A DNA stretch of 38,069 bases from Desulfobacca sp. 4484_104 (GTDB lineage Bacteria > Desulfobacterota > Desulfobaccia > Desulfobaccales > Desulfobaccaceae): NCBI GenBank assembly GCA_002049795.1, contig MUKC01000028.1:1-38069 (forward strand), read 5' to 3'. The first letter of the stretch is position 1, and each line of letters begins with the position of its first letter. Of this stretch, positions 11,991 to 20,812 are shown in pieces. The notes under the pieces were generated by a model. It saw nothing but the letters and a program-made list of their open reading frames with translations. It searched no databases and was not told where the DNA came from. The position numbers were made by a program, and so were the translations under genes.

Positions 11991-12929
11991 ATGCATTTAG
12001 GTGATTGGGAAGACCTGTTTGCGCGGCCATTTAGAGACCTCTGGCCGTTAATGGCGACAGCCAGTGCTCTGCGAGAGCAGCGGGTCGGGTCGGGGATCAG
12101 TCTGTGTGTGATTATCAATGCCAAGTCAGGGCTATGTAGCCAGGACTGTGCATTCTGTGCTCAATCCCGGGTATCGCAAGCAAAGATCAAGCGTTACCCG
12201 CTGCTAGCCCTAGATGAGCTGGTGGCCGCGGCCCAACACGCGGCCGGGCAGGGCGCGGCGCGCTTTTCCATCGTCACCTCGGGCCGGGGGATAGTCAAAG
12301 AGCAGGAACAAGAGACTATTTTACAGGCCATTGCGGCCATTCGGGCCAGCACCAACCTTAAGGTTTGCGTGTCTTTGGGCATTTTAGAGCCTGATTTCTT
12401 GCAGGCCCTGGCTGTGGCCGGGGTCCATCGTTACCATCATAATTTAGAAACCGCAGCCTCCTATTTCCACCAGATCTGTACGGCCCATACCTACGCCGAG
12501 CGGCTCCAGACCATTCAGTCAGCCCAGGCCGCGGGGCTGGCAGTCTGCGTCGGGGGCATTTTCGGGCTCGGGGAAAGCGTGGCCCAGCGCTGGGAAGTGG
12601 CCCAGGCCTTAAAGCAGCTGGCAGTGGACTCGATTCCCTTGAACTTTCTGCATCCCATTGCCGGGACGCCGTTGGGCTCGCGCCCCTTGCTGTCGCCGTT
12701 GGAGGGCTTAAAGATCATCCTGGCCTTTCGCCTGAGCTTTCCGGATAAACGCCTGATCATTTGTGGTGGTCGCACCCCGACGCTGCGCTCTCTGGCCCCG
12801 CTGATGTTTGCCGCGGGCGCCGATGCCTTGATGACCGGGGATTATCTGACCACCCAAGGCCGGTTGCCGGACGAAGATTTGCAGATGCTGGCCGATCAGG
12901 GTCTGCATCCGACCGACGGAGATGATTAG
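11991..12929 (+). CDS. bioB: Biotin synthase
   Basis: A 312-residue radical-SAM enzyme inserting sulfur into dethiobiotin to form biotin. The [4Fe-4S]/SAM motif is C49-x3-C53-x2-C56 (CSQDCAFC), followed by the BioB hallmarks YHHNLETA and, towards the C-terminus, NFLHPIAGTPL and GGRTPTLRS (the Arg that helps bind the [2Fe-2S] cluster). Length is slightly below the usual 315-345. The start is supported by GGAAGG. It heads the operon and is followed by bioD after two bases. Anaerobic growth suits this oxygen-sensitive enzyme. Confidence 0.96.
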   Translation: MHLGDWEDLFARPFRDLWPLMATASALREQRVGSGISLCVIINAKSGLCSQDCAFCAQSRVSQAKIKRYPLLALDELVAAAQHAAGQGAARFSIVTSGRGIVKEQEQETILQAIAAIRASTNLKVCVSLGILEPDFLQALAVAGVHRYHHNLETAASYFHQICTAHTYAERLQTIQSAQAAGLAVCVGGIFGLGESVAQRWEVAQALKQLAVDSIPLNFLHPIAGTPLGSRPLLSPLEGLKIILAFRLSFPDKRLIICGGRTPTLRSLAPLMFAAGADALMTGDYLTTQGRLPDEDLQMLADQGLHPTDGDD

Positions 12930-12931
12930 TC

Positions 12932-13669
12932 ATGGTAGTTCTACCCGAAATCGCCCCGACCCGCGGCGTATTTGTCACCGGCACCGATACCGGGGTGGGC
13001 AAGACGGTTATTGCTGCGGGACTGACCGCGGCGCTCCGGGAGCTCGGTCAGGCCGCGGTCTATTTCAAGCCCATCCAGAGCGGGGCCCGCGCCACTGAGG
13101 ACGGCCTGATTCCCGACGATGCCCTTTTTGCCCAACAGATGGCAAACTTAGAAGAGCCGTTGGCCATGCTGACCCCTATAATTCTTAAGCTGCCCCTGGC
13201 CCCGGCCGTGGCCGCGGCCCAGGCCGGGGTGCGGATCGATCTGAATCGCATCGCCGCGGCCTTTAATGACTTGGCCCGGCGCTATGACTTTCTGGTGGTG
13301 GAAGGGGCGGGCGGCTTGTATGTCCCGTTGATCGATACCGATTTTCTGGTTTTAGATCTGGCCTGCTGGCTGAATCTGCCGCTGGTGGTGGTGGCACGCC
13401 CCGGCCTGGGGACCATTAACCATACCACGCTTAGCGTCAAAGCCGCGTTGTCGGCCGGACTAGAGGTCGCGGGGATCATCATCAACCAGTACCCCGAGCA
13501 CCCCGGTCTGGCCGCACGCACCAATCCCGAGATCATTGCCGCGCTTACGGGGAAGCCGATCCTGGGCCTGGTGCATGTTATCATCGATCTTGATACAACG
13601 AGCGGCAGAAAACCTCTGCTAGCGGCTTTACAAACCATTGTTTGCCGATCTGACTGGCCCCGACCATGA
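12932..13669 (+). CDS. bioD: Dethiobiotin synthetase
   Basis: A 245-residue ATP-dependent carboxylase that closes the ureido ring of 7,8-diaminopelargonate to give dethiobiotin. The P-loop is GTDTGVGKT (residues 17-25), followed by YFKPIQSG (substrate lysine region), VVEGAGGLYVPL and the LVVVARPGLGTINHT segment, all typical of BioD. It begins two bases after bioB and overlaps bioF by 4 nt (ATGA), indicating translational coupling. Confidence 0.95.
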   Translation: MVVLPEIAPTRGVFVTGTDTGVGKTVIAAGLTAALRELGQAAVYFKPIQSGARATEDGLIPDDALFAQQMANLEEPLAMLTPIILKLPLAPAVAAAQAGVRIDLNRIAAAFNDLARRYDFLVVEGAGGLYVPLIDTDFLVLDLACWLNLPLVVVARPGLGTINHTTLSVKAALSAGLEVAGIIINQYPEHPGLAARTNPEIIAALTGKPILGLVHVIIDLDTTSGRKPLLAALQTIVCRSDWPRP

Positions 13670-14859
13670 TTGACCGGCGATCATCCTTAGCACCGCTGAC
13701 CCAAGAACTCCAGGACTTGGAGAGCCAGCACTTGCGGCGGCAGTTGCAAGTCATCGATCAGGTGCTGCCGGGCGGCTGGGTGCAGGTCGGCGACCGCCGG
13801 TTGCTTAACCTTTCTTCTAACGATTACCTGGGTCTGGCCCTGGATGAGCGGCTGATCATGGCGGCCCAACGGGCGGCGGCCCGTTGGGGGACGGGCAGCA
13901 CTGCCTCCCGCCTGATTGTCGGCAATTATGCCCTGCATGCGGAAGTCGAAGCCCAGGTGGCGGCCTTCAAAGGGATGGAGCGGGCTGCTTTGTTTAATAC
14001 CGGCTACATGGCTAATCTGGGGATTATCGCGGCCCTGATGGACCGCGGCGATGTCATCCTCTCCGACCGTCTCAATCACGCCAGTATTATTGACGGTATC
14101 AGGCTTTCCGGGGCTACCTTTTACCGCTATCCGCATCGGGACCTGAACCGCCTGGAGGATTTACTGATTAAAACCGCGGGGGCTAAAAGACGCCTGATCG
14201 TCACCGATACCGTGTTTTCAGTGGATGGCGATCTGGCCCCGTTGCGCCAGCTAGTGGCACTGAAGAATCGTTACGGCGGGTGGTTGATGGTGGATGAGGC
14301 CCATGCGACCGGGACCTGGGGGGCGAACGGCGCGGGATTGGCCGAAGCCCTGGAAGTCGCCGACGCCATCGAGATTCACATGGGCACTTTCTCTAAGGCC
14401 TTGGGCAGTTTTGGGGCCTATGTGGCGGGCGAGGTCCCCTTAATCGAATATTTATACAATCGGGCCCGGTCATTTATCTATTCCACCGCGCTCCCACCGC
14501 CGGTCCTGGGCGCGATTCAGGCGGCGCTCCTGATCGTCGCCCAGGAGCCGGAAAGGCGCCAGCGCTTGCTGGGCCAGGCGGCCTGGTTCCGGGGAAAACT
14601 TGAGGCGGCCGGGTTTGACACCTTAAACAGCGAAACTCAGATTGTCCCGGTGTTAGTCGGAGATAATCAGCGGGCCTTAGAGTTTGCCGAGTCCCTGCGC
14701 CAGGCGGGGATCATGGCGGTGGCCATCCGCCCCCCCACCGTGCCACCGGGCGGGGCCCGACTGCGCTTTTCGCTGGCCGCCAGCCATACACCTGAAGCCC
14801 TGGCAGGAGCAGCCCAGATAATCATCCGGATCGGACAAGAACTGGGGTTAATTCCGTGA
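13666..14859 (+). CDS. bioF: 8-amino-7-oxononanoate synthase
   Basis: A 397-residue PLP enzyme condensing pimeloyl-ACP (or -CoA) with L-alanine. Key features are SNDYLGLA, GTGSTASRLIVGN, the DEAHATGTWG motif, and the PLP lysine K244 in TFSKALGSFGAYVAG. The C-terminus RPPTVPPGGARLRFSLAASHT is characteristic. It overlaps bioD and the following hydrolase gene by 4 nt each. Length is normal for BioF. Confidence 0.95.
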   Translation: MIDRRSSLAPLTQELQDLESQHLRRQLQVIDQVLPGGWVQVGDRRLLNLSSNDYLGLALDERLIMAAQRAAARWGTGSTASRLIVGNYALHAEVEAQVAAFKGMERAALFNTGYMANLGIIAALMDRGDVILSDRLNHASIIDGIRLSGATFYRYPHRDLNRLEDLLIKTAGAKRRLIVTDTVFSVDGDLAPLRQLVALKNRYGGWLMVDEAHATGTWGANGAGLAEALEVADAIEIHMGTFSKALGSFGAYVAGEVPLIEYLYNRARSFIYSTALPPPVLGAIQAALLIVAQEPERRQRLLGQAAWFRGKLEAAGFDTLNSETQIVPVLVGDNQRALEFAESLRQAGIMAVAIRPPTVPPGGARLRFSLAASHTPEALAGAAQIIIRIGQELGLIP

Positions 14860-15554
14860 CTACCCTGGTGCTGGTGCACGGCTGGGCCGCGAGCAGCCGT
14901 ATCTGGCAACGGCAGCGCCAGCATTTCGGCGCTAGCCTGGAGCTACTCACCCCGGACCTGCCCGCCTGGGAGACTGGTTGGCTCTGCGATTATTTGCGGC
15001 CCTTGCCTTTAGATCAGACGGTGCTGGTGGGTTGGTCGCTGGGGGGAATGCTGGCCGGGGAGGCCCTGGCCCGGATAGGAAGTGCCCCGCGGCACCTGGT
15101 GCTGGTCGGGGTGGCCGCCAGTTTTTGCCGGCGGCCGGATTTCACCGGGGGAGTCGCTCCCGCCCTGGTCCGAGCCAGGCGCCGTCAACTGTGTTCCGAT
15201 CCTGCCCAGGTGGTTCAGGAATTTGCCCAACTCTGCCTGGCACCCGGCGAAGAGAATTTTGGCCAAGAATTATTATCTCTCTGGCCCCCGCCGGAAGTTC
15301 CGGAATTTTTGGCCGCGGGCCTGGATTATCTGCTGGCCCAGGACTTGCGGCCCTATCTTGGACGTTTAACGGGAAACGTCACTATAGTTCACGGCGACGC
15401 GGATCGGGTTACGCCGGTGGCGCAGGCTTATTACCTTAAAGAGCAGATGCCGGGGGCGCGGTTGGAAATTTTCCCCGATGCCGGGCATTTGCCGTTTCTG
15501 ACCCAGGCAGCTAAATTTAATGCCCTAATGATGGAACTAGTCGATGAAAGTTGA
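14856..15554 (+). CDS. bioH: BioH-like pimeloyl-ACP methyl ester esterase
   Basis: A 232-residue alpha/beta hydrolase starting with GTG that overlaps the bioF stop (GTGA). HGWAAS forms the oxyanion region, the nucleophile is Ser61 in VGWSLGG, the acid is probably Asp183 in HGDADRVTP, and the base His211 in DAGHLPFL. In the BioC-BioH route this enzyme releases the methyl group from pimeloyl-ACP methyl ester, and here it sits directly before bioC. Other isofunctional esterases (BioG, BioJ, BioK) exist; sequence and position fit a BioH-type enzyme, a little shorter than E. coli BioH (256). Confidence 0.83.
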   Translation: MTTLVLVHGWAASSRIWQRQRQHFGASLELLTPDLPAWETGWLCDYLRPLPLDQTVLVGWSLGGMLAGEALARIGSAPRHLVLVGVAASFCRRPDFTGGVAPALVRARRRQLCSDPAQVVQEFAQLCLAPGEENFGQELLSLWPPPEVPEFLAAGLDYLLAQDLRPYLGRLTGNVTIVHGDADRVTPVAQAYYLKEQMPGARLEIFPDAGHLPFLTQAAKFNALMMELVDES

Positions 15555-16368
15555 TAAAAACCGATTGGGCCATAATTTCGGCCGACAGGCATTCCGATAT
15601 GATCAATATGCCCAGGTGCAGCGTTACATGGCGGAGCAATTGGTGGGGTATTTGCAGGTTCTGGAGCGCCCCCCGGCCCGCATCCTGGAAATCGGCTGCG
15701 GCACCGGTTATCTGACGGGCCTATTGCGGCAGACCTTTCCAGACGCGCATCTGACCGCCCTGGACCTGGCCCCCGCGGCCCTGGCGCAGGCCCGGCGGCG
15801 GCTCGGCCACGATCCCTGGATCGATTGGCTGGTAGCGGATGGCGAGCAACCACTCCGGGGCCGCTTTGACCTGATCACTTCTAATTCGGTGTTCCAGTGG
15901 TTTAATCAGCCGGCCGAGAGTTGCCGGCGCTATCGGGAGCATTTGCACCCCGGCGGCGGGCTGATTTTTGCGACTCTGGGACCGGCCACCTTCCAGGAAT
16001 TAGCCCTCAGTCTGGAGCGCGCCGCCCAGCAACTTTCTCTTAATGGGGGCGGGGCGATATCCCCACCGCCGATTCCGGCCCAAGGCTTTGCCGGAAGCGC
16101 GGCATGGCAGCAGTTCTTAGTCCAGGCCGGATTTGTGGGGGTAAAGGTGCATCGTCAGTTGTGGATGGAGAGTTATCCCGGAGTGCTCGCTTTTCTTAAG
16201 GCCATCCGCGGCATGGGGGCGACCCGGCCCTGTCCGGCCGCTTTGTCACGCCGGTTGTTGACCGAGATGATTGCCAGTTATGAGGCCGGTTACCGGGTAA
16301 ATGGGACGATCCCGGTCACCTACGAGTTGCTTTGGGCGTTGGCCCGCCACGCCCTTCATTCGGTTTAG
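15544..16368 (+). CDS. bioC: Malonyl-ACP O-methyltransferase
   Basis: A 274-residue SAM-dependent methyltransferase that starts pimelate synthesis by methylating the free carboxyl of malonyl-ACP. NFGRQAFRYDQYAQVQ at the N-terminus and motif I LEIGCGTGYLTGLL, followed by LTALDLAP and LITSNSVFQWF, match BioC closely. It overlaps the bioH-like gene by 11 nt and ends the operon. No bioA (diaminopelargonate aminotransferase) is present between these genes, so that step must be encoded elsewhere. Confidence 0.92.
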   Translation: MKVDKNRLGHNFGRQAFRYDQYAQVQRYMAEQLVGYLQVLERPPARILEIGCGTGYLTGLLRQTFPDAHLTALDLAPAALAQARRRLGHDPWIDWLVADGEQPLRGRFDLITSNSVFQWFNQPAESCRRYREHLHPGGGLIFATLGPATFQELALSLERAAQQLSLNGGGAISPPPIPAQGFAGSAAWQQFLVQAGFVGVKVHRQLWMESYPGVLAFLKAIRGMGATRPCPAALSRRLLTEMIASYEAGYRVNGTIPVTYELLWALARHALHSV

Positions 16369-17144: not shown

Positions 17145-17618
17145 TTATTGGTAACCAAGCGTGAGGCCCACCCAGGTGTAACTTCGTTCCGCGGGTAGCT
17201 CTATTTCCCAGCGGTCCAGGGTGGCTCGACGATGCAGTTGCCAGCCCTGGTTCAGATAGAGGGTCAACAGCGTCTGTTCCTGAGTTTCCCGGAAACCGGA
17301 GAGAATTAACCGGCCCTGAGGGTAGGTCAGGCGTTGCAATTCCATCACCTTGGCCATATGAACGGTCCAGGGCAGGTTGGCCACGACCAGCTCAAAATGG
17401 CCCCGCAGGGCTTCGGTTGAACCTTGCAGCCAGTGCACCTGGCCAGCCGGCTTTTCCATCTGGGCGGCAGCCAAAAGTTCCAGACATAACTGGGTGGTAG
17501 AGTGAGAGGGCGGGAAGGCCGTGCCACTTCGCAGAGTCAATACCCGGTCGCCAGGACGGGATCGGTAGGGTCGCCAGGCAGATCGGATAACCAATTGCGG
17601 AGCCAGGCGATAAAACAT
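17145..17618 (-). CDS. PrmA-like methyltransferase lacking the SAM-binding core
   Basis: 157 residues that match ribosomal protein L11 methyltransferase at both ends of its catalytic domain but not in the middle. Residues 31-49 (SGTAFPPSHSTTQLCLELL) correspond to PrmA's PGxAFGTGxHxTTxLCLxxL, and residues 74-157 (HFELVVANLPW ... GRLILSGFRETQEQTLL) to the C-terminal half. The intervening motif I (DxGxGSGIL) and acidic motif II, normally about 50 residues, are absent, and FGTGxH has become FPPSHS. The N-terminal L11-recognition domain is also missing. Methyltransferase activity is unlikely; it may be a decaying gene or a repurposed fold. The frame is intact. Confidence 0.6.
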   Translation of the reverse strand: MFYRLAPQLVIRSAWRPYRSRPGDRVLTLRSGTAFPPSHSTTQLCLELLAAAQMEKPAGQVHWLQGSTEALRGHFELVVANLPWTVHMAKVMELQRLTYPQGRLILSGFRETQEQTLLTLYLNQGWQLHRRATLDRWEIELPAERSYTWVGLTLGYQ

Positions 17619-17869: not shown

Positions 17870-18349
17870 ATGAGTAAATCATTATTAACCCGGGCCGGAT
17901 ATGAAAGACTGCGCCAGGAATTGCGGCAGTTGCGGCAGGTCGTGCGTCCCCAAACCTTATCGGAAGTAATGGAAGCGGCTCAGGAGGGGCGGCTGGAGAA
18001 AAATACCGAATATCTGGAAGCTCGGGCCCGCCAGCTTCAGGTAGAAAACCGCATTGCGCAGTTACAACAGGTGTTGGCCAATTCGGAAGTGCTGGTCGGC
18101 AGCAACTTGACTCCGAATCGGGTAGTGTTTGATTCCCAGGTGCGGGTTCGCAACCTGTTTACCGGTCAGGTGCTGAGCTATCAACTGGTAGGGGAAGAAG
18201 AGGCCGATGCCCGCAACGGCCGGCTGTCGATCACCGCGCCGGTGGGGCAGGCCCTGTTGGGCCGCGCGGTCGGGGATCAGATCCGGATTCAGACCCCGGG
18301 CGGCTTAAGGGTATATCAGATATTAGAGATTCGCATGAGTAGTTCATGA
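17870..18349 (+). CDS. GreA/GreB family factor with altered catalytic tip
   Basis: A Gre-type RNA polymerase secondary-channel factor of 159 residues from the ATG at 17870; a GTG at 17840 would add 10 residues. The N-terminal coiled coil (about 7-75) and C-terminal FKBP-like domain (QVLSYQLVGEEEAD ... ALLGRAVGDQIRIQTPGG) are complete. The tip normally reads GDLxEN with Asp41 and Glu44 holding the Mg ion for transcript cleavage; here it is G40-R41-L42-E43-K44-N45, so both acidic residues are basic. The numbering agrees with E. coli GreA, which supports this start. Classical cleavage-factor activity is unlikely; a non-cleaving regulator like Gfh1 is more plausible. Confidence 0.87.
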   Translation: MSKSLLTRAGYERLRQELRQLRQVVRPQTLSEVMEAAQEGRLEKNTEYLEARARQLQVENRIAQLQQVLANSEVLVGSNLTPNRVVFDSQVRVRNLFTGQVLSYQLVGEEEADARNGRLSITAPVGQALLGRAVGDQIRIQTPGGLRVYQILEIRMSSS

Positions 18350-18391
18350 CCGGACCGAGCCGCTATTTACTTTCAATCCTAAGGAGGACAA

Positions 18392-20812
18392 ATGTCACGC
18401 ACTGATTGGGAATTAAAGCCAGAGAACTTGCGCACGGTTTGTGATCCAGACTCATTAGGATTTGAAACCACGGCGGAACTGGAACCCCTGACGGATAAGG
18501 TAGTAGCTCAATATCGCGCCCGGCATGCCCTGGAGTTTGGCCTCGGCATGAAAGACCCGGAGTTCAATATCTTTGTGGTGGGTTTGCCCCGGACCGGCAA
18601 GGTCGAAATGATCAAGGCCTATGTTGATGAACTGGCCTCTAAAGAAGAAACTCCACCTGACTATGTTTACGTCTATAATTTTAAAGAGCCGGAGAAGCCC
18701 AACGCCCTGAAGCTACCGACTGGGAAAGGACGGGAGTTGGAAAACGACTTAAATGGGTTAATTTCCACTCTAAAGGTTCAGATCCCGGAGGTCTTTGAGA
18801 GTGAAAATTATACCTCGCGGCGCGAGGCCTTAGTGCGCAAATTTAACAAGGAAAGAAATGCCGTACTACAGGAATTAGATACCAAGGCCGGGGCCGAGGG
18901 TTTTATTCTTAATGTTTCCCAAACCGGCTTAATGATCGTCCCCGGTAAAGATGGTAAACCCATGGGGGATGAGGAACTTAAGGCCTTAAGTGATGCCGAA
19001 CGGGAGGAATTGCGCCAGAAATCCAATGCCCTACACGCAGAGATGACCGAGGCCTTACATAAAATCCGTAAAATGGAAAAGGAGTTCGAAGCCGAAGAGA
19101 AGCAACTGGACCAAAATATTGCGCTTTATGTGGTAGGCCATCGGATCGAGGAGCTGATCGAAAAATATCAGGGCTATCCGGAGGTGACCGAGTATTTGCG
19201 TCAGGTCGAACAAGATATCTTAAAAAATATTGATGACTTAAAACGTCGTCCGGGTAGCACCCCGACGCCCTTTCCGATTCCTATCCCCGAGCCCAGTTTT
19301 GTCCAATATCGGGTGAACGTCTTCGTCGATCATTCGGCTACCCAAGGGGCGCCGGTAGTCTTAGAAAATAATCCGACCTATACCAATCTGTTCGGCGGCA
19401 TCGAGCGTCGGGCCCAGTTCGGGGCCTTGGTCACCGATTTTACCCTGATCCGTCCCGGGGCCTTGCATCGCGCCAATGGCGGTTATCTGATCATGAATTC
19501 CTTGGATCTGTTAAAGTGGTATTTTTCTTACGAAGCGCTGAAACGGGCCTTAAAAAATCAGGAAATCAAGATCGAAGACCTGGGCGAACAGTTGGGCCTG
19601 ATCACCACCAAGACCTTGCACCCCGAGCCTATCCCTTTAAAACTAAAGGTAATCTTAACGGGCAGCCCCTTGCTTTATCAATTGCTTTACACCTATGATG
19701 AGGACATGCATAAACTTTTTAAGGTCAAGGCCGACTTTGATTGGGAGATGCGTCGCACCCCCGAACACCTGCAGAAATTCTCGGCCTTTCTAAGAAGTTA
19801 CTGCGAAAAGGAGAACTTGCGGCCAGTCCACAAGACCGGGGCCGCCCGGCTGGTGGAGTACGCCAGCGAGTTAGTGGGGCATCAAGAGAAGCTCACCCTG
19901 CAACTGGCTGAGGTGGCCGCGGTACTGAAGGAGGCCAATTTCTGGGCCGGCACCAATGGCCATGACGTCATCCGGGCCGAGGATATGGAAAAGGCCATTG
20001 CTGAAAAGATTTACCGCTCGGACCTGCCCGAAGAAAAGCTGCAGGAATTTATTCAGGAAGGCATGCTGACCATCGAAACCAGCGGCGCGGTGCAGGGCCA
20101 GGTCAATGGGCTGTCCGTTTATATGTTGGGCGATCATGCCTTTGCGCGCCCCAGTCGGATTACCGCCGCGGTGTCGCTGGGCAAAGAAGGCGTGGTGACC
20201 ATCGACCGAGAATCCAAGCTCTCCGGCAATATCCATACCAAAGGGGTGATGATTCTCTCCGGCTATCTCAAAAGCTGTTTTGCCCAGGATAAGCCCCTGA
20301 CCCTATCGGCCAGCCTCTGTTTTGAGCAGAGTTACGGTATGGTCGAAGGGGACAGCGCCTCCGGCGCGGAGCTGCTGGCCTTGCTTTCCTGTCTGGCAGA
20401 GGTCCCTCTGGCCCAGAATATCGCCGTCACCGGCTCAATCAGCCAGCGCGGTGAGTTTCAGCCCATCGGCGGGGTTAATTGGAAGATCGAGGGTTTTTAT
20501 AAGGTCTGTAAGGTCCGGGGACTGGACGGCAGCCACGGGGTGATCATCCCCAAGGCCAACGTTCAGGACCTGATGCTGAAAAAAGAGGTGTTGGACGCAG
20601 TCCGGGAAGGCAAATTTCATGTCTGGGCCGTAGGCCAGATAAACGAGGCCTTGGAGATTATGACCGATTTACCTGCGGGCCAGAAGCTGCCCGAAGGCGG
20701 CTTTGAACCGGGGACGATAAACTACCGGGTCGATCAGAAGCTGCGGCAGATGATGGAAACCGCTCGGGAACTGATGAAAGAGGAAAAAGGCGCCAGCAAA
20801 GAAAACGAATAA
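18392..20812 (+). CDS. Lon-like protease, LonC/AAA_32 type
   Basis: An 806-residue Lon-family protease with an AAA-like N-terminal part, a long helical insertion (about 145-265) and a C-terminal Lon proteolytic domain. The Ser-Lys dyad is Ser657 in EGDSAS and Lys698 in GGVNWKIEG, the LonB/LonC arrangement. The P-loop is degenerate: GLPRTGKV (64-71) lacks the Ser/Thr after Lys, and the Walker B region reads ANGGYLIMNSLDLL without acidic residues. This fits Lon relatives with weak or no ATPase function. AAGGAGG precedes the ATG. It follows the Gre-like gene by 42 nt, probably in one transcript. Confidence 0.9.
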   Translation: MSRTDWELKPENLRTVCDPDSLGFETTAELEPLTDKVVAQYRARHALEFGLGMKDPEFNIFVVGLPRTGKVEMIKAYVDELASKEETPPDYVYVYNFKEPEKPNALKLPTGKGRELENDLNGLISTLKVQIPEVFESENYTSRREALVRKFNKERNAVLQELDTKAGAEGFILNVSQTGLMIVPGKDGKPMGDEELKALSDAEREELRQKSNALHAEMTEALHKIRKMEKEFEAEEKQLDQNIALYVVGHRIEELIEKYQGYPEVTEYLRQVEQDILKNIDDLKRRPGSTPTPFPIPIPEPSFVQYRVNVFVDHSATQGAPVVLENNPTYTNLFGGIERRAQFGALVTDFTLIRPGALHRANGGYLIMNSLDLLKWYFSYEALKRALKNQEIKIEDLGEQLGLITTKTLHPEPIPLKLKVILTGSPLLYQLLYTYDEDMHKLFKVKADFDWEMRRTPEHLQKFSAFLRSYCEKENLRPVHKTGAARLVEYASELVGHQEKLTLQLAEVAAVLKEANFWAGTNGHDVIRAEDMEKAIAEKIYRSDLPEEKLQEFIQEGMLTIETSGAVQGQVNGLSVYMLGDHAFARPSRITAAVSLGKEGVVTIDRESKLSGNIHTKGVMILSGYLKSCFAQDKPLTLSASLCFEQSYGMVEGDSASGAELLALLSCLAEVPLAQNIAVTGSISQRGEFQPIGGVNWKIEGFYKVCKVRGLDGSHGVIIPKANVQDLMLKKEVLDAVREGKFHVWAVGQINEALEIMTDLPAGQKLPEGGFEPGTINYRVDQKLRQMMETARELMKEEKGASKENE

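Follow-up and report, generated by a model that had tools for sequence, protein, structure and literature searches.

Gre factors are the main bacterial route for rescuing backtracked RNA polymerase (RNAP). The window analysed here, i.e. the whole stretch of 38,069 nucleotides from Desulfobacca sp. 4484_104, encodes a protein of this family in which both residues aligned with the catalytic acids of GreA are basic, and this raises the question of what such a protein might do at the polymerase and whether it is a local oddity or belongs to a class of its own.

The protein and its tip

With respect to its identity, the 159-residue translation of the gene at 17870-18349 (Table 1) contains two Gre domains, which are complete as the earlier note had described them: the coiled-coil domain PF03449 scores 70 bits against a Pfam cut-off of 24.5 and the C-terminal domain PF01272 scores 80.6 bits against a cut-off of 26.9, each being matched nearly end to end. 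The AlphaFold2 model (mean pLDDT 90.4, helices 8-37 and 46-70) compares with GreA and GreB at TM values of 0.82-0.91 and with RNAP-bound Gfh1 at 0.82-0.87; it sits in a GreA-like domain state, as a predicted model that is uninformative on pH-dependent switching. By both domains and by its fold the protein belongs to the Gre superfamily, although it falls below all cut-offs of the NCBIfam GreA/GreB models (best score 150.8 bits against an equivalog cut-off of 167 bits). Two other identities were rejected. The coiled coil is full-length in the model, as opposed to the shortened coiled coil of Rnk, and in the Pfam domain search the zinc domain zf-dskA_traR of DksA/TraR had no match in the protein, a true DksA being encoded elsewhere in the same genome.

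Table 1. Features of the Gre locus in the window
Feature	Position	Strand	Remarks
Gre-family protein, 159 aa	17870..18349	+	N-terminal coiled coil and C-terminal RNAP-binding domain; Asp41 and Glu44 absent
Codon 41, CGG (Arg)	17990..17992	+	aligned with catalytic Asp41 of GreA
Codon 43, GAG (Glu)	17996..17998	+	order-specific acidic residue, conserved in 24/25
Codon 44, AAA (Lys)	17999..18001	+	aligned with catalytic Glu44 of GreA
Codons 76-77, Val-Gly	18095..18100	+	inter-domain linker; common to the clade of order and paralogues, 0/64 canonical proteins
Gre-LonC junction	18346..18391	+	start-like remnant ATGACCGGACCGAG of the cation-efflux gene found here in the sister genome
LonC/LonB-type AAA+ protease	18392..20812	+	AAA_32, LonC_helical, Lon_C; neighbour, functional link putative
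PrmA-like methyltransferase	17145..17618	-	divergent; lacks about 48 internal residues of the sister-genome copy

In the alignment with E. coli GreA, Arg41 and Lys44 fall on Asp41 and Glu44, with numbering identical to that of GreA and GreB and with no gap in the coiled coil, exactly where the earlier note had placed them. In particular, no member of the order Desulfobaccales has an indel between residues 8 and 74 when aligned with E. coli GreA and GreB, which excludes a register shift placing Glu43 at position 44. The earlier note had named other acids in the catalytic site, e.g. Glu43, as a possible objection to its reading, and the unshifted register of the coiled coil argues against such a placement. 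A sequencing error or local mutation as the source of Arg41 and Lys44 was likewise rejected, as the same residues occur across the genus and family f1; the sister genome has identical tip residues at 97% identity, and across the order Arg41 is kept via four different synonymous codons.

To call the tip "charge-reversed", as was done at first, nevertheless overstates the change. Residues 41 and 44 are indeed basic, but Glu43 has been gained: residue 43 is Glu or Asp in 24 of the 25 proteins of the order, whereas it is acidic in none of the 64 canonical proteins and in no paralogue (see below). Over residues 38-48 most proteins of the order have a net charge of -1, as against -3 in canonical proteins, so that the tip shows the two basic substitutions expected of a TFS4-like inhibitor and yet a net charge of about -1. 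It has neither the catalytic Asp41 and Glu44 of GreA/GreB nor the acidic tip of Gfh1, the acids at 41 and 44 being replaced. Asn45 and Tyr48, both proposed RNA contacts, are present in the window protein, and Asn45 together with Tyr or Phe at position 48 is found in those members of the order that carry Arg41 and Lys44 (R/K). One subclade of family f2, comprising seven genomes, has neither Asn45 nor the basic residues, its tips reading, e.g., GLAEPGWD or WGAEAGPD, which suggests further functional change or a relaxed constraint on the tip.

Gene neighbourhood

In most of the order Gre is followed by a cation-efflux (CDF) gene and then LonC, while a PrmA-like methyltransferase gene lies upstream in divergent orientation. 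In the window the CDF gene itself is missing, and its remnant overlaps the Gre stop codon. Compared with its counterpart in the sister genome (G001, L033:3280-3933), the PrmA-like gene of the window has a gap that takes in the SAM-binding motif; either the assembly is at fault here or the deletion is real and in frame. Further upstream, positions 11991-16368 of the plus strand hold what appears by eye to be a biotin synthesis run (bioB, bioD, bioF, an alpha/beta hydrolase and bioC). The pairing of Gre with LonC, which had been taken as a hint of a stress-regulated factor, turned out to be weak evidence: of 30 genomes sampled outside the order, 20 have LonC homologues, no Gre neighbourhood checked there contains one, and in most of the order the CDF gene separates the two. 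As LonC homologues are this widespread in the phylum, LonC was rejected as a partner of Gre. A scan of viral contigs gave no phage or virus relatives.

The only Gre protein of the Desulfobaccales

The window genome (93% complete) yields a single match for each Gre domain, both within this one gene. Exactly one Gre was found in 28 of 29 genomes of the order, including a single-contig genome of 3,282,536 bases, and none in the remaining, fragmented genome; canonical GreA, sought with both Pfam domains in the window genome and its relatives in the order, was not found. None of the order's 25 full-length Gre proteins has Asp41; their residues 41/44 are R/K (14 proteins), R/R (2), R/E (1), G/K (1), G/A (3), L/P (3) and I/P (1), R/K being kept throughout family f1 and in half of f2. 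What is constant in the order is the loss of Asp41, the R/K pair being one of several tip states. All 64 canonical Gre proteins used for comparison keep Asp41, with D/E at positions 41/44 in every case but one (D/D), and relatives from other phyla whose tips were read are canonical, too.

Between pairs of genes from the order dN/dS is about 0.05-0.2, and pN/pS is 0.16 for the tip, 0.16-0.17 for the helices and 0.22 for the C-terminal domain. Purifying selection on the gene, with a tip as constrained as the rest, shows that the gene is functional, and in the R/K lineages the tip itself is maintained.

A wider clade without Asp41

The second Gre of genome G064, which has Val41 and His44, prompted a search of 395 genomes of the phylum Desulfobacterota. 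In this search, 16 genomes of families f38, f63, f71 and f91 (like f1 and f2, anonymous labels) were found to carry a paralogue with Val, Ala, Ile, His or Tyr at position 41, so that relatives without Asp41 exist in at least four families besides the order. All 16 genomes also encode another Gre, canonical (D/E) wherever its tip was read. In a tree built without the tip columns (about 145 columns, with long branches), the order and the paralogues form one clade with a support of 97/94, the order alone reaching 100/99. Removal of the linker columns leaves them together (SH-aLRT 93), which speaks against a long-branch artefact, while the C-terminal domain by itself, being too short, gives weak resolution, the tree that holds them together scoring better (p-AU 0.8). 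Asp41 is absent from all 41 members, i.e. 16 of 16 paralogues and 25 of 25 proteins of the order. Moreover, the linker residues Val76-Gly77 occur in 94-100% of the order and paralogue proteins as against none of 64 canonical ones, and Glu32 and Leu120 are also common to both groups, with lower contrast to canonical proteins. The window protein shares all the marks by which the clade is proposed here, namely the missing Asp41, Val76-Gly77 and monophyly without the tip columns.

The earlier note had suggested examining whether such homologues cluster and whether they co-occur with canonical GreA. They do form a single clade, while co-occurrence is divided, canonical GreA being absent from the order and present beside the paralogues. 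Its proposal of a new non-cleaving class unlike Gfh1 survives in part: with a coherent clade, Asp41 lost in every member, GreA absent from the order and purifying selection on the gene, the clade is best read as a non-cleaving class separate from Gfh1. R/K, however, does not define it, as this pair is found in 14 of the 25 order proteins and the paralogues carry V/D and other pairs; common to all is the loss of Asp41, together with the Val-Gly linker.

We infer from these relationships that the paralogue without Asp41 arose early in the phylum and that the Desulfobaccales later lost GreA and kept the paralogue, although horizontal transfer between families may have contributed to its spread. 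Outside the order, a NUDIX hydrolase gene adjoins the paralogue in 15 of the 16 loci, making a link to a nucleotide metabolite possible. In several f71 genomes the paralogue lies near rtcB, archease and rimP-nusA-ylxR. Finally, 47 of the 395 genomes, a single-contig genome among them, have no Gre match at all, and Gre is therefore dispensable in several families of the phylum.

The polymerase and a proposed mechanism

On the side of the polymerase, the catalytic elements of beta' look normal in the order. The C-terminal RNAP-binding surface is among the best conserved parts of its Gre proteins, with Ser121, Pro125, Leu130 and Gly132 (GreA numbering) of the binding motif invariant, and the rim helices of the cognate beta' subunit are conserved as well, a combination from which binding as a secondary-channel factor is predicted. 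The DFDGD motif, the bridge helix, the trigger loop and an SI3-sized insertion of beta' are all normal. None of the order's beta' subunits has an order-specific change at positions 773, 940, 1141 or 1142, sites of substitutions that raise intrinsic cleavage in Cyanobacteria, which excludes a compensation of the cyanobacterial type in beta'. The DksA encoded elsewhere in the window genome has a DxxDxA tip.

In our view, the Desulfobacca Gre is likely to be a non-cleaving secondary-channel factor. Its C-terminal domain would dock on the beta' rim helices and its coiled coil would enter the secondary channel as in GreA, an occupation of the channel that we infer from homology. In Mycobacterium tuberculosis Gre, D43N abolishes cleavage and E46R does not (PMC3132773), so that loss of Asp41 predicts that cleavage is not stimulated, whatever the effect of Lys44, and without Asp41 the second Mg ion would not be held. 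An occupied channel, a trigger loop that is probably displaced and competition with DksA could then slow or tune RNAP. In those members with R/K, the two basic residues may form pairs with backtracked RNA or with the catalytic Asp triad, in analogy to the inhibitory lysines of archaeal TFS4. The earlier note had also thought of NTP or ppGpp as possible partners of such residues. E. coli GreA D41A E44Y has no antipause activity and is still toxic when overexpressed (PMC7527559), so that a Gre protein can affect the cell even when it lacks the acids. Since the only Gre of the order lacks the catalytic acids, its role is probably to regulate the polymerase and not to rescue it, and with GreA lost and the paralogue alone, rescue of backtracked RNAP in the Desulfobaccales would have to rest on intrinsic cleavage or on other factors. 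Several points count against parts of this scheme: the conserved Glu43 could partly replace a carboxylate; the net charge of the tip is still about -1, unlike the triple lysine of TFS4; the loss of the basic residues in one f2 subclade shows that they are not essential in all members; and the tree, with its long branches, is built on some 145 columns.

Alternative explanations

A stronger, special form of the non-cleaving factor, whose probability overlaps with that of the general form, assumes that Arg41 and Lys44 lock the active site of RNAP and stop transcription under some condition, as in TFS4, where tips of lysines or arginines (KKK, RRR) inhibit RNAP (PMC5715097). The conservation of R/K in f1 and half of f2 despite synonymous codon change would fit an inhibitor. 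However, the basic residues are lost in one f2 subclade and absent from the paralogues, the net charge of the tip is not positive, and TFS4 accompanies an active TFS1 whereas the window Gre is the sole Gre, so that we regard this form as rather doubtful.

Less probable still is a shifted tip, in which Glu43 and Asp/Glu47 coordinate the second Mg ion and the protein, as a weak or altered cleavage factor, remains the GreA of the order. The near-constant acid at position 43, without counterpart in canonical proteins, the lack of any other Gre in the order and the retained RNA contacts at 45 and 48 in the R/K members are what such a tip would lead one to expect. Against it, Asp41, essential by mutagenesis (PMC3132773), is gone; Glu47 is normal in canonical proteins and fails to rescue D41A E44Y (PMC7527559); no indel is available to move the register, and one f2 subclade lacks even Asn45.

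The presence of Gre-less genomes in the phylum and the diversification of tips within f2 might also indicate a decaying GreA, i.e. a former cleavage factor that is no longer needed in the order and is heading for loss as in the Gre-less families; the low dN/dS, the fact that 25 genomes carry the gene complete and its place in an older clade already devoid of Asp41 make this very improbable. E. coli GreA has been reported to act as a chaperone (PMC3521015), and a non-transcriptional role of this kind would fit the LonC linkage conserved in the order; it deserves hardly any credence, however, as the RNAP-binding surface is so well conserved and LonC, widespread in the phylum, is missing from every Gre locus checked outside the order.

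Implications

Returning to the non-cleaving factor, the order offers a natural test of whether Gre proteins matter apart from cleavage, because its sole Gre lacks the catalytic acid and is under strong selection while trigger loop and bridge helix are ordinary. That E. coli GreA is toxic even when catalytically dead had already raised the question of a role beyond cleavage, and the NUDIX-adjoining paralogues, which coexist with GreA, allow the same test in a second and independent system. In the literature searched, a scope that leaves out many subscription papers, we found neither a Gre clade defined by loss of Asp41 nor an order without any other Gre. As a tentative synthesis, which could well fail in one or other of its parts, an undescribed clade without Asp41 might constitute a regulatory secondary-channel factor that has wholly replaced GreA in one order, leaving a normal polymerase with no cleavage-stimulating Gre, and whose Arg41/Glu43/Lys44 tip would control the active site.

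Comparison with known systems

With GreA and GreB the window Gre shares both domains, the length, an indel-free coiled coil, the RNAP-binding motif and the predicted fold, but it differs in lacking Asp41 and Glu44, in its Val-Gly linker and in falling below the NCBIfam cut-offs. Non-cleaving Gre homologues are already known in Gfh1 and Rv3788, both of which keep the acids (PMC4598747). Gfh1 of Thermus/Deinococcus is a non-cleaving Gre paralogue whose RNAP-bound form the window model resembles, non-cleavage being a prediction for the latter; Gfh1, however, accompanies GreA and has an acidic tip, whereas the order has other residues in place of the acids and no longer has GreA. Rv3788 of M. tuberculosis, a Gre homologue without cleavage activity, as is predicted for the window Gre, competes with GreA and inhibits RNAP (PMC3132773, PMC4598747). 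It is the opposite of the window protein: Rv3788 has retained both acids, on which its inhibition depends, but not the Asn/Tyr pair that is kept here as Asn45 and Tyr48.

Archaeal TFS4 offers a parallel in which the acids of a cleavage factor were replaced by basic residues, making an inhibitor of RNAP (PMC5715097), but it has the unrelated TFIIS fold and three lysines, and coexists with active TFS1. Cyanobacteria, finally, have no Gre and, like the order as proposed here, transcribe without a cleavage-stimulating Gre; their trigger-loop and bridge-helix substitutions, which raise intrinsic cleavage (PMC7026648), are absent from the beta' of the Desulfobaccales, which in contrast keep a Gre-like protein.
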